Below, in pieces: positions 22,199 through 28,541 of a stretch of 33,577 nucleotides of DNA (its first letter is position 1; each line of letters starts with the position of its first letter). Both the position numbers and the translations under genes were made by a program. The stretch lies in the IMG/VR virus record IMGVR_UViG_3300047998_000025, positions 1-33,577 of that record; one strand, given 5' to 3'. This DNA comes from a virus. The notes beneath the pieces are model-generated. The model was given only the letters and a program-made list of their open reading frames with translations, did no database searches and was not told the origin of the DNA.

Positions 22199-22357
22199 TT
22201 AGTATCCTAACCATTCTAAAACTTCGTTTGATTTATAAACTGATTTGCTTCCTACTTCCTCTACAAACTCAGCCCAGTCTACGCCATGCGCTAACACCTC
22301 CGCCTTGGCTTGCTTTGCTGATACGTCGTATCCTTCCATTGCTTCGTCGTATGTCAT
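22199..22357 (-). CDS. First gene of the leftward operon, 52 residues
   Basis: Also below a 60-residue cut-off. From ATG 22357 it encodes MTYDEAMEGYDVSAKQAKAE, then VLAHGVDWAEFVEEVG, ending KSVYKSNEVLEWLGY. GGAG lies nine bases upstream. The C-terminal 'Y....VL.WLGY' ending is typical of very small phage proteins. It is the gene nearest the control region, so it should be among the first transcribed. Unknown function. Confidence 0.72.
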   Translation of the reverse strand: MTYDEAMEGYDVSAKQAKAEVLAHGVDWAEFVEEVGSKSVYKSNEVLEWLGY

Positions 22358-22555
22358 GTGGTGTATCTCCGTTGCGTTGTTGATGTGAGTAACTTTAGGC
22401 GAAGGTTTTGAGTATGTCTAATATTGATTTTAAATATTGTTTTCGAAAACCATTCACGAGATGAATAATGCCTGAACTGCTCACGTATAAAAGATCGCCT
22501 GCGCGCGTCTAACATGGTGACAACATAGAGTCAATACTGTTTATGCGTACAGTGT

Positions 22556-22588
22556 CTATGGTGTGGCTATGGTGTGTCTATAGGGTCC
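22556..22588 (+). repeat. Three 11-bp direct repeats
   Basis: CTATGGTGTGG, CTATGGTGTGT and CTATAGGGTCC start at 22556, 22567 and 22578, one helical turn apart. GTCTATG (22554-22560) also has its inverted partner CATAGAC at 22591-22597, and GTCTAT/ATAGAC (22576-22581 and 22592-22597) can form a hairpin with a 10-base loop. Such phased copies are typical of sites for an initiator or regulator. Confidence 0.6.
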
Positions 22589-22624
22589 CACATAGACTCT
22601 CACACCTCACCTTTGAAGATCTAC

Positions 22625-22650
22625 ATATGCGCATATAAAGATACCTTTAT
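22625..22650 (+). repeat. 12-bp palindrome followed by AT-rich inverted repeat
   Basis: ATATGCGCATAT (22625-22636) is a perfect palindrome. ATAAAG and CTTTAT (22635-22640, 22645-22650) form arms around a 4-base loop. The pair is AT-rich, next to the iterons and the G-run block. It may be a dimeric protein site or unwinding element. Confidence 0.55.
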
Positions 22651-22668
22651 GTTTGTCTGTACAGATCT

Positions 22669-22683
22669 GGGGCGGGGGAGGGG
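22669..22683 (+). other. G-run block (13 of 15 bases G)
   Basis: GGGG-C-GGGGG-A-GGGG is unlike the AT-rich surroundings. Three G-runs of four or more allow, at most, a two-layer or intermolecular quadruplex. It could pause polymerases or mark a replication start. Confidence 0.55.
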
Positions 22684-22863
22684 CTGTGTCTGTGTAAATT
22701 ATATATGTACCCACCTAGACACAAAAAAGAGTCAAATTAGACCCTAAAATAACCCCTAGTTATCTAACAAGAAACAATATATAAATCAATAACATGATCG
22801 GTTCAGAATCTGGACCGTGCTGGTACAGTTTAAAGGACAATACAGTCTTGTTAAAAATAATGC

Positions 22864-22892
22864 TTGACAAATCCCTAAAAGTATGGTACAAT
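22864..22892 (+). promoter_or_regulatory. Strong sigma70-type promoter for the rightward operon
   Basis: TTGACA (22864-22869), a 17-bp spacer and TACAAT (22887-22892) differ from consensus by one base. GTATGG precedes the -10 box, as in the promoter at 28228. Transcription should start near 22899 and read the terminase, endolysin and portal genes after a leader of about 120 bases. An A/T-rich tract lies upstream. Confidence 0.8.
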
Positions 22893-22908
22893 AAATAGTA
22901 TATTATGT

Positions 22909-23006
22909 CTTTAAAGATTCTTTACCGCGCTGAGTAAGATAAATTTTATATGATAATTATTAAATGTATGTCATATAAGCACGGTAACGAGACTTTAAAG
23001 AGTCTT
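22909..23006 (+). promoter_or_regulatory. Pair of 14-bp repeats in the leader, operator candidate
   Basis: CTTTAAAGATTCTT (22909-22922) and CTTTAAAGAGTCTT (22993-23006) differ by one base. They lie 84 bp apart, near eight helical turns. The first lies about 10 bases after the predicted start; the second sits just before the first gene's ribosome site, and AGACT/AGTCT around it can form a small hairpin. Repressor or antiterminator binding is possible. Confidence 0.5.
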
Positions 23007-23019
23007 ATAAGAGGTATGT

Positions 23020-23430
23020 ATGTCAGATGTTGATAATCCTCCTCGCCGAAAGCGTGGAAGACCGCGTAAAAGTGACGTTACAACAGTAAAAAAAGGTAAT
23101 CGCAACGCTGTTGGTCGCCCGAAGGGTGACGCTGCCGTCATTAACGAATACAAAGCACGTATGTTAGCGTCTCCAAAGTCCCGAAAGGTGTTAGACACTA
23201 TCTTTGACGCAGCTCTTGACCATGATCATAAGAATCAAGCAGCAGCGTGGAAGCTTGTTATGGACAGGATACTGCCCGTTGCAGCGTTTGAGAAGGATAT
23301 TGTTAAGGATGGTGGACGTAACGCCATTCAGATTAACATTAGTGGTGTTGGTACAGTAGATGTAAGTGAACCTACAACAGTTGCTACGTCTAGCGACATT
23401 ATAGAAGGCGAAGTAGTCGATGAATCTTAA
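23020..23430 (+). CDS. Probable small terminase subunit
   Basis: The 136-residue protein opens with an AT-hook-like basic stretch (PPRRKRGRPRKSD, residues 6-18, then NAVGRPKGD). A helical core follows (YKARMLASPKSRKVLDTIFD, then HKNQAAAWKLVMDRILPVAA), then a strand-rich acidic tail. Being first in the packaging operon, three genes before large terminase, with a DNA-binding N-terminus, fits the subunit that selects the packaging site. GAGG lies six bases upstream. The helical core matches my memory of small terminases of marine podoviruses, but no catalytic motif can confirm it. Confidence 0.65.
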   Translation: MSDVDNPPRRKRGRPRKSDVTTVKKGNRNAVGRPKGDAAVINEYKARMLASPKSRKVLDTIFDAALDHDHKNQAAAWKLVMDRILPVAAFEKDIVKDGGRNAIQINISGVGTVDVSEPTTVATSSDIIEGEVVDES

Positions 23431-23770: not shown

Positions 23771-24123
23771 TGTTATACACAAAGAACAAAAACCTAACAG
23801 ATACTTCTACGCAAACAATTGTAGAAATACCTGCTGGTTACGTGGCTCACTGGAACATGGCATTCATAGCTAATCTACATAACTCCACCAATGACGTTAC
23901 GTTGTTTGTAGATAAGCCTAGCCCCACAACAGATGTGTATATCTACAACGGTACTAACATATCCTCGAAGGAAAACCTGTTGATTGACGGTAATGCCGTG
24001 TTTGTTTTACAGCCGGGAGACATTATTAAAGCGTCTAGTGGTAGTGCAGGCAACGTAGAGGTAGTTGTTACATTTGATTTGTTAGAAGCACCAGCGGTGT
24101 TTAATAACTTTAATGGATCTTAA
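23770..24123 (+). CDS. Beta-rich hypothetical protein before large terminase
   Basis: From ATG 23770 (117 residues, overlapping the endolysin stop) the sequence alternates strands (TIVEIPAGYVAHWNMAFIAN, DVTLFVDKP, NAVFVLQPGDIIKAS, NVEVVVTFDLLEAP). The 'VFVLQPGDIIKA' segment looks like a jelly-roll or cupin-type turn. A GTG at 23758 would add four residues. Similar beta-sandwich proteins in packaging operons are minor head or neck proteins, but no evidence beyond position and fold pattern was found. Confidence 0.62.
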   Translation: MLYTKNKNLTDTSTQTIVEIPAGYVAHWNMAFIANLHNSTNDVTLFVDKPSPTTDVYIYNGTNISSKENLLIDGNAVFVLQPGDIIKASSGSAGNVEVVVTFDLLEAPAVFNNFNGS

Positions 24124-25363
24124 TATAGAACTACTGCCTTGGCAGCAAGATGTTTGGGCAGATGAAACAAGATTTAAAATAGTAGCTGCTGGGCGACGTA
24201 CAGGTAAGTCTAGGTTAGCTGCGTGGATGTTAATTGTTAACGCACTACAGGCGGATAAAGGCCATGTATTTTACGTCGCACCTACTCAGGGACAAGCCAG
24301 AGACATTATGTGGCAAACCTTGCTTGAACTGGGCCACCCTGTTATCAGTAACAGCCATATTAATAATCTTCAAATTAAGCTTGTCAACGGTGCTACTATC
24401 AGCCTCAAAGGTGCCGACAGACCAGAGACAATGCGAGGTGTCAGCCTTAAGTTTCTAGTCATGGACGAATACGCTGACATGAAGCCAGAGGTGTTTGAGC
24501 AAATCTTGAGACCTGCACTTGCGGATCAAAAAGGATGTGCGATGTTCATTGGTACGCCAATGGGAAGGAACCACTTTTACGAACTTTACAAATATGCGGA
24601 GCTAGATGATGACCCTACGTACAAGGCTTGGCATTTTACATCTTACGATAATCCTTTATTGGATCCGTCAGAAATTGATATTGCGAAGAGAAGCATGTCG
24701 AGCTATGCGTTCCGTCAAGAATTTATGGCGTCGTTTGAAGCTCGTGGGTCAGAAATGTTTAAGGAAGATTGGGTTAACTTTAGTGAAGAAAAACCCGAAG
24801 TAGGAGATTATTACATTGCCGTTGACTTGGCTGGCTTTGAAGAAGTTAACAAAAAGAAGACAAAAAGTTCTAAGCTTGACGAGACAGCGATTGCCGTGGT
24901 TAAGGTCAGTGAGCATGGTTGGTATGTTGACAATATCATATACGGTCGATGGACACTTGACGAAACAGCAGCTAAGATATTTCAGGCCGTTAGAGATTAC
25001 CGTCCCGTGTCGGTTGGAATCGAAAGAGGTATTGCTAAACAGGCTGTAATGTCTCCTTTGATGGACATGCAAAAACGATACGGAATGTTTTTTAGAGTAG
25101 AAGAACTTACTCACGGAAATAAAAAGAAGACAGATCGTGTTATGTGGGCGTTGCAAGGACGGTTTGAGAATGGATACATAACGCTAAACAAAGGTGAGTG
25201 GAACAGTAGATTTTTAGATCAGCTCTTTCAGTTTCCTGATCCGTTAACCCACGATGATTTAATTGATGCTTTAGCGTACATAGATCAAGTAGCAAATGTA
25301 GCTTATAACTACGACTACGAAATAGAAGATCATCAAATCTTAGATGTAGTAGCAGGATACTAG
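24113..25363 (+). CDS. Large terminase subunit
   Basis: The 416-residue protein has the packaging ATPase motifs AAGRRTGKS (Walker A, 25-33) and FLVMDEYAD (Walker B, Asp118/Glu119) and an RNase-H-type nuclease with IAVDLAGFE (Asp238), VGIERG (Glu304) and THDDLIDAL (Asp381, Asp382, Asp385). It pumps DNA into the procapsid and cuts the concatemer. Its start overlaps the upstream gene by 11 bp and the portal gene follows after 22 bp. It is shorter than T7 gp19 (586 residues) and would partner the small subunit three genes upstream. Confidence 0.93.
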   Translation: MDLNIELLPWQQDVWADETRFKIVAAGRRTGKSRLAAWMLIVNALQADKGHVFYVAPTQGQARDIMWQTLLELGHPVISNSHINNLQIKLVNGATISLKGADRPETMRGVSLKFLVMDEYADMKPEVFEQILRPALADQKGCAMFIGTPMGRNHFYELYKYAELDDDPTYKAWHFTSYDNPLLDPSEIDIAKRSMSSYAFRQEFMASFEARGSEMFKEDWVNFSEEKPEVGDYYIAVDLAGFEEVNKKKTKSSKLDETAIAVVKVSEHGWYVDNIIYGRWTLDETAAKIFQAVRDYRPVSVGIERGIAKQAVMSPLMDMQKRYGMFFRVEELTHGNKKKTDRVMWALQGRFENGYITLNKGEWNSRFLDQLFQFPDPLTHDDLIDALAYIDQVANVAYNYDYEIEDHQILDVVAGY

Positions 25364-27984: not shown

Positions 27985-28231
27985 AACCAAAGGCGGTCTT
28001 ACTAAATGGTTTAAAGAGGATTGGGTGGACGTTAAAACGGGTAAGCCTTGTGGTCGTAAGTCAGCTACCAAGAGTAAACGTCCTTACCCTTCTTGTAGAC
28101 CTAAAGCGGTTGCAGCTAAGATGACCGCAGCAGAAAAAAAATCTTCTGCTAAACGCAAAACAGGACCGGCTAAAATTAAACACGCAGTAACAGCGTCAGG
28201 TCGTAGAAGAAAGTCTACAAAAAAGTCTTGA
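27977..28231 (+). CDS. Small basic Cys-containing protein (DUF5872-like)
   Basis: From ATG 27977 (84 residues) the product starts MSKTKGGLTKWFKEDWVDVK, then TGKPCGRKSATKSKRPYPSC, then RPKAVAAKM and a Lys/Arg-rich tail. The 'GGL..WF.E.WVD....CGR....YP.CRP' pattern matches DUF5872-type proteins. Two cysteines (25 and 40 by my count) may bind metal or form a disulfide. A GTG at 27965 was rejected because it overlaps the upstream gene further. Function unknown. Confidence 0.76.
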   Translation: MSKTKGGLTKWFKEDWVDVKTGKPCGRKSATKSKRPYPSCRPKAVAAKMTAAEKKSSAKRKTGPAKIKHAVTASGRRRKSTKKS

Positions 28232-28286: not shown

Positions 28287-28541
28287 ATGACACCCGAGCT
28301 TGAAACATACTTTAACAATTACAATGAATTGTTTAATCATGAAGGTTTCAAACAACTCGTTAGCGAACTTTCCAACAACGCAACGCAGTTAGCTGATATT
28401 CAAACAGTAAAAGACCAAGAAGATTTATATTATCGTAAAGGTCAAGTAGCTGCTTTTGCAACTGTTATCAATCTACAAGGTACTATTGAAGCTGCTCGTG
28501 ATCAAGCAGAAGCAGAGGCTGAAGAACCCGTAGATGTATAA
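28287..28541 (+). CDS. Hypothetical protein before scaffold
   Basis: The 84-residue product (MTPELETYFNNYNELFNHEG, then a helical FKQLVSELSNNATQLADIQT and an acidic Ala/Glu end) is wholly helical. GAGG lies 6 bases upstream, right after the strong promoter. The pattern (LYYRKGQVAAFATVINLQGT) recalls small proteins near capsid genes in marine phages. Function unknown; it may be a head assembly helper. It overlaps the zinc-ribbon gene by 8 bp. Confidence 0.72.
   Translation: MTPELETYFNNYNELFNHEGFKQLVSELSNNATQLADIQTVKDQEDLYYRKGQVAAFATVINLQGTIEAARDQAEAEAEEPVDV

Follow-up and report, generated by a model that had tools for sequence, protein, structure and literature searches.

Left of a conserved G-run, in the gap between two divergent operons of what its sequence marks as an uncultured podovirus-like phage, lies a hypervariable patch that relatives swap for unrelated patches. 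Its anatomy, exchange and motif content describe a conserved yet unusually plastic region. We propose, with confidence evenly balanced, that this is a modular noncoding control region where host proteins would bind, coupling the early operon, and perhaps replication, to host regulators. More tentatively, the locus may trade ready-made site arrays for host master regulators (replication, SOS, iron, nitrogen/sigma54 and others) as plug-in modules, the host signal gating the infection or being subverted by it. We infer the binding of host proteins and the process controlled from sequence.

The gap between the two operons

The window, i.e. the whole stretch of DNA analysed, is the virus record IMGVR_UViG_3300047998_000025 (33,577 bases); such records are often fragments. 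Its leftward genes include ribonucleotide reductase, exonuclease, DNA polymerase and primase/helicase, its rightward ones large terminase, portal, major head protein and tail fibres. As noted in a preliminary description made from the letters, the region lies between divergent operons: a 662-bp gap (22358-23019), with the first leftward ORF on one side and the first rightward gene on the other, separates the leftward replication operon from the rightward terminase/capsid (packaging and structural) operon. Table 1 lists the features of the gap and its borders.

Megablast found no cultured phage with the same DNA. A distant-mode nucleotide search gave short matches only, 20/20 near the rightward promoter among the matches listed. 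Among cultured phages the TerS-like protein had no match, and the large terminase subunit (TerL) and the DNA polymerase matched only below 60% identity. Assigning a host through genome contigs was abandoned: the three loci that stand in MAGs fall into three different groups, are probably mis-binned and give no host.

The elements that had been pointed out in this gap are present, at unequal strength. Three 13-nt copies of the tandem repeat start at 22552, 22563 and 22574 (spacing 11 and 11), and when the gap was shuffled with dinucleotides preserved, one sequence in 1000 reached their three-copy score; the window thereby shows direct repeats in helical spacing, at least three of which are expected of an iteron-type origin. 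An inverted repeat surrounds them (22551-22560 against 22591-22600, 90%). The 12-bp palindrome ATATGCGCATAT (22625-22636) is weak: 57 of 2000 shuffles of the 130 bp have one. The AT-rich hairpin is a dyad at 22635-22650, whose motif TAAAGATAYCTTTA occurs 15 times in the array regions of relatives and 0 times elsewhere in the same loci. The G block, with 13 G in 15 positions, is the sole such block in the window and appears in 0 of 1000 shuffles; it may bear some likeness to a mitochondrial control element. Proteins presumably bind the iterons and the AT-rich dyad.

The recognisable module of the window is a LexA-like box adjoining a leftward promoter-like pair. The box has CTGT-N8-ACAG with agreeing interior and flanks, as does the consensus of the array hits described below; the whole window holds five CTGTN8ACAG words, and its gap one recognisable box. 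The DnaA box TTATCCACA, searched across the whole window, gave no hit, and TTATNCACA has one copy, at 23773, outside the gap. Known RNA families gave zero matches in the gap up to E = 1.

The TerS-like protein carries AT-hook-like motifs (KRGRPRK, GRPKG) at its start and has no PHROG match; three early ORFs near the gap, where a cognate initiator might be encoded, had none either. In the leader of its gene stand the dyads TCTTTAAAGA (22908-22917), CTTTAAAG (22993-23000) and TCTTATAAGA (23003-23012). Relatives have TTTAAA or TTATAA instead, with the symmetry kept and often in tandem, and the dyads are perhaps a phage operator or an RNA element. Further right, a perfect 12-of-12 sigma70 promoter at 28228 (+) lies just before the ORF at 28287, upstream of head genes.

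Table 1 Features of the gap and its borders, with window positions
Feature	Position	Strand	Evidence or remark
First leftward ORF (52 aa), bordering the gap on its left	22199-22357	-	Translation; under the 60-aa cut of the ORF list
Candidate leftward promoter: TTGACT (22534-22529), 17 bp, TAGACG (22511-22506), weak -10	22506-22534	-	Spacing shared by 10 sequences
LexA-like box CTGTTTATGCGTACAG	22537-22552		Interior varies in relatives, both half-sites kept
Three tandem repeats, 11-bp spacing	22552-22586	+	Shuffle test; similar arrays in a few relatives
box1, conserved, bounding the cassette on the left; direct repeat of box2	22584-22606	+	box2 matrix
Exchangeable cassette, here palindrome (22625-22636) and AT-rich dyad (22635-22650)	22607-22668		Comparison of relatives
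G-run GGGGCGGGGGAGGGG	22669-22683	+	Shuffles; GGGGGAGGGG exact in 121/165 rows
Spacer from G-run to AGAYACAAAAAAG, fixed length, sequence mostly variable, last 10 bases in box2	22684-22716		
box2 with A-tract GTACCCACCTAGACACAAAAAAGAGTCAAATTAGA	22707-22741	+	Column frequencies, 165 rows
Terminator-like hairpin, leftward, then T-run	22728-22745	-	Consensus scan: 1 found vs 0.5 expected
Strong sigma70 promoter, TTGACA-17-TACAAT, 11 of 12	22864-22892	+	Could drive the terminase operon
First rightward gene, putative small terminase subunit (TerS)	23020-23430	+	Position ahead of the large subunit; no family match
Large terminase subunit (TerL)	24113-25363	+	Follows the putative TerS gene

A conserved skeleton around an exchangeable cassette

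Relatives were fetched with TerL (80 loci kept), with the TerS-like protein (80) and with a G-run/A-tract pattern (119 stretches); regulator motifs were not used. Loci fetched by the pattern were selected with the G-run word GGGGGAGGGG, those fetched by TerL and TerS without it. With the AGAYACAAAA part of box2 as search anchor, the core was found in 222 loci among L002-L276 and the window, which gave 165 distinct sequences (rows) and 134 non-redundant representatives. These counts leave out 24 loci that lack this exact core although their TerS starts over 400 bp inside.

The relatives keep one arrangement upstream of TerS, running from box1 through the variable cassette and the G-run to the 33-bp spacer, box2 with its A-tract, the AT-rich stretch and the promoter. 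By column frequencies the G-run and the boxes are the most conserved parts, and AT content, 0.39 at the G-run, climbs to about 0.72 on its right. The spacer between the G-run and AGAYACAAAAAAG measures 32-34 bp in 139 of 165 rows. In 62 of 125 loci the box2 matrix scores box1 higher than the 99th percentile of controls (opposite strand: 9/125). A rightward promoter of at least 10 of 12 stands within 250 bp of the anchor in 92 of 130 relatives, against about 17 in shuffles.

Exchange of the cassette was assessed in sequences at least 97% identical over the 300 bp that run rightward from box2 (70 pairs among 151 sequences whose flanks were long enough). Cassettes were unrelated in 27 of the 70 pairs and the same in 21; for a control stretch of 75 bp, 300 bp away, the figures were 0 and 68. 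Four pairs with flanks less than 85% identical have a common cassette. The window and one relative (L082) encode identical TerS-like proteins and agree in their bases on both sides of the cassette, but differ inside it; the L082 cassette recurs, slightly changed, in L108 and L109, at a TerS identity of 85%.

The preliminary description had named two things that would tell against it: no skew change or replication start at the gap, and no conservation of the repeats. Locus, G-run and flanking boxes are conserved, whereas the iterons and palindrome are not (the 11-bp motif is found in 4/134 loci); the second point thus applies to the repeats but not to the locus with its skeleton, and we regard the swapping of the repeats as the actual result.

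A fixed core ahead of the terminase genes could also be a packaging site (cos or pac). The G-run would then be cut itself or lie next to the cut, box1 and box2 would bind the small terminase, and host proteins on the cassette would bend the DNA, as IHF does in lambda cos. Lying some 340 bp before the putative TerS gene, the locus is suitably placed for such a role, and the strong conservation and fixed spacing of G-run and boxes and the AT-hook-like RGRP motifs of putative TerS fit it as well. Near the cassette contig ends reach a higher density (12 of 52 left ends fall 300-600 bp ahead of TerS), but these ends (of contigs, not reads) scatter over some 300 bp with no stop at the G-run, and many contigs pass through. 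Assembly breakage at a hypervariable place would give the same picture, so that both breakage and genome ends fit. We regard a packaging site as improbable.

Host-regulator motifs in the arrays

We defined the array region as the 400 bp left of the G-run (51,014 bases) and compared it with the rest of the same 134 loci (896,231 bases). Sites of four kinds (DnaA boxes, LexA boxes, Fur half-sites, sigma54 sites) exceed their density in the rest 28- to 334-fold there: TTATCCACA, the DnaA box, occurs 85 times in arrays and 6 times in the rest, CTGTN8ACAG 32 and 20, TGAGAATCATT 19 and 1, TGANAATNATTNTCA 9 and 0, and TGGCAYN5TTGCW 47 and 4, counts that are not independent, the loci being related. 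Permuted versions of these five motifs average 0 to 1.1. We assume here the familiar consensus motifs of DnaA, LexA, Fur and sigma54. At least one of the four regulator kinds is found in 68 of 134 loci, compared with 16 of 1330 random 400-bp control segments; 65 loci are without any counted motif. At least two TTATCCACA copies stand in 27 of the loci, at least one LexA box in 26 and at least two in 5.

Bases beyond the searched words match the consensus in the arrays and not in the rest, namely the interior and flanks of LexA boxes, and G follows TGGCAY in 85% of array hits. This agreement, with the permuted-motif and same-locus controls, makes it highly improbable that we are looking at an ordinary promoter region with matches due to chance or base composition, even though the motifs are short, the loci related and the window's gap endowed with one recognisable box.

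Some of the 65 loci without a counted motif have other strong repeats; counted over all 134 loci, these are GTTCTNTTTTGGNAC (27 in arrays, 0 in the rest), AGTGTTACC (19 and 8) and CTTATATAAG (5 and 0). The array regions of L234 and L170 consist of many GTCTTATA-type words, akin to the dyads of the TerS leader. CytR was rejected as reader of the TTGCATTCTGC cassettes, its half-site being just 3.3-fold enriched and paired sites present in 2/134 loci. We make no claim for OxyR-like words (9 in arrays, 5 in the rest, yet permuted words reach 7) or IHF-like words (15 and 51, 5-fold). Words for CRP, ArgR, NrdR, TyrR, PurR, FNR, Cra, TrpR, MetJ, Zur, HexR, PsrA, NtrC, SlyA, PhoB, IscR, MntR and PdhR were found 0 times in array regions.

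Reverse searches of 2.9 million viral contigs had the motifs as sole starting point. Triple DnaA arrays were found in at least 118 loci, and at least 40 of those examined encode a relative of any of five proteins. Among the matches listed, these arrays lie 210-620 bp upstream of TerS in 28 of 32 loci placeable by TerS or TerL (a set that excludes two TerL matches at 23%) and reach relatives with TerL identities of 50-60%. Tandem LexA boxes occur in 107 loci, 51 of them with a relative of any of the five proteins and 41 with TerL or TerS. Tandem sigma54 sites occur in 27 loci, of which 11 have TerL matches and 16 no detected relationship. The seven with TerL identity of at least 73% all have their sites 289-585 bp upstream of TerS, pointing away from it; in the four with weaker TerL the sites are 1.7-5 kb off. 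Since arrays also occur in contigs without relationship, those of DnaA, LexA and sigma54 are not private to this group. Six viral contigs with no detected kinship (L583, L587, L593, L594, L596, L604) carry tandem near-perfect sigma54 sites.

Direction of the arrays and comparison with known systems

The sigma54 sites face the leftward operon at 41 of 47 positions; of the 20 loci where one direction prevails, 19 point leftward (P = 4e-5). A LexA-like box followed by leftward TTGACW-N17-TAGR, with a weak -10, occurs in 10 sequences, the window among them; overall, this pair is found leftward in 14 rows and rightward in 1. DnaA boxes are often 11-12, 22-23 or 33 bp apart, near multiples of 11 bp. 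Fixed strand, LexA-promoter pairing and DnaA phasing suggest action in cis. Within 250 bp left of the G-run, canonical sigma70 promoters (at least 10 of 12) are not above shuffle level in either direction. An R-loop formed by rightward transcription into the G-run was also considered and dropped, there being no excess of rightward promoters to its left.

Alternatively, the arrays could be inert on phage genes and serve as a decoy, many phage copies soaking up a host regulator (LexA, Fur, DnaA or sigma54) and so shifting host metabolism, repair or replication. Arrays with several near-consensus sites, mostly with no good promoter adjoining, would suit this, as would the occupation of one place by oppositely acting regulators and the sigma54 tandems in contigs without detected relationship (16/27 loci). 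A decoy, however, needs no fixed place, strand or helical phasing, all three of which are observed, and many loci have a single LexA box. We think it unlikely.

We also doubt, to a similar degree, that the locus is a replication origin proper, where the array would bind an initiator, usually DnaA and otherwise other proteins, and the AT-rich stretch right of box2 would unwind. Among the identified sites DnaA boxes are the commonest, their arrays extend to relatives at 50-60% TerL identity, and both their phasing and the climb in AT content would fit. The cumulative GC skew does reach its minimum at the gap, yet gene direction alone would yield it. The window is without TTATCCACA, iterons are not conserved (4/134 loci), and we know of no DNA-opening initiator role for LexA, Fur or sigma54. 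In E. coli, DnaA box and unwinding side have a defined arrangement, to which the box strand is opposite in most of the 134-locus set (24 to 5) and mixed among loci found by their DnaA arrays (19 vs 13).

'Replication origin or master switch', the preliminary suggestion, pointed in the right direction, and a transcription switch fits better than an origin, given the sigma54 orientation and the LexA-like box adjoining the leftward promoter-like pair. In the control region that we propose, the conserved skeleton consists of box1, the G-run, the spacer fixed at 33 bp, box2, the AT-rich stretch and the rightward promoter, and about half of the relatives have matches to host-regulator consensus (DnaA, LexA, Fur, sigma54) in the variable patch to the left of the G-run. 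Host proteins bound to the patch would work in cis, with leftward (early) transcription as their main target and the start of replication as a possible second one; swapping the patch would swap the host signal heard by the phage. Against this control-region reading stand the lack of a common sense of action of DnaA, LexA, Fur and sigma54 on one promoter, the 65/134 motif-free loci, a window cassette assigned to no regulator, the poor proposed -10, the few good sigma70 promoters by the arrays and the strand of the DnaA boxes, biased in the 134 loci (24 to 5) but mixed among loci found by their DnaA arrays (19 vs 13).

If host proteins do bind, one noncoding locus would tell, from metagenomes, which host signal a phage follows or subverts, and would provide a natural swap series for testing the evolution of regulatory input in bacterial viruses. 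Cassettes without a named protein may be a source of regulator sites from uncultured bacteria. At abstract level and with few subscription journals covered, a literature search found no report of exchangeable host-regulator arrays in phages.

Several known systems share part of this layout. The lambdoid cos site lies ahead of the terminase genes and has a G-rich conserved core with flanking boxes, in all of which our region is like it; unlike cos, the contigs examined show no fixed genome end and the arrays are exchangeable. Bacterial origins, in the accessible part of one account, have an unwinding system of DnaA-boxes, spacer and DnaA-trios with a GC-rich gap that averages 4 bp (PMC8287927). 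Some relatives similarly have tandem DnaA boxes adjoining a G-rich stretch; the window's gap, in contrast, is without DnaA boxes, and its G-run measures 15 bp. Promoter P1 of phage GIL01 is described, in the text available, as being under host LexA via SOS boxes (PMC4551915). Phage transcription would likewise be under the host SOS repressor here, judging from the LexA-like boxes, but GIL01 is temperate and uses one host regulator, whereas LexA-like boxes are one of several exchangeable kinds in our loci. Closest in layout, as far as the accessible text of two papers goes, is the polyomavirus noncoding control region, which stands between early and late genes and has variable host transcription-factor sites (PMC7762344, PMC9144386). 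The phage region has the same early/late position and a variable set of candidate host-factor sites; it belongs to a bacterial virus with no common descent and swaps whole patches for different regulators, and the likeness is thus one of layout.
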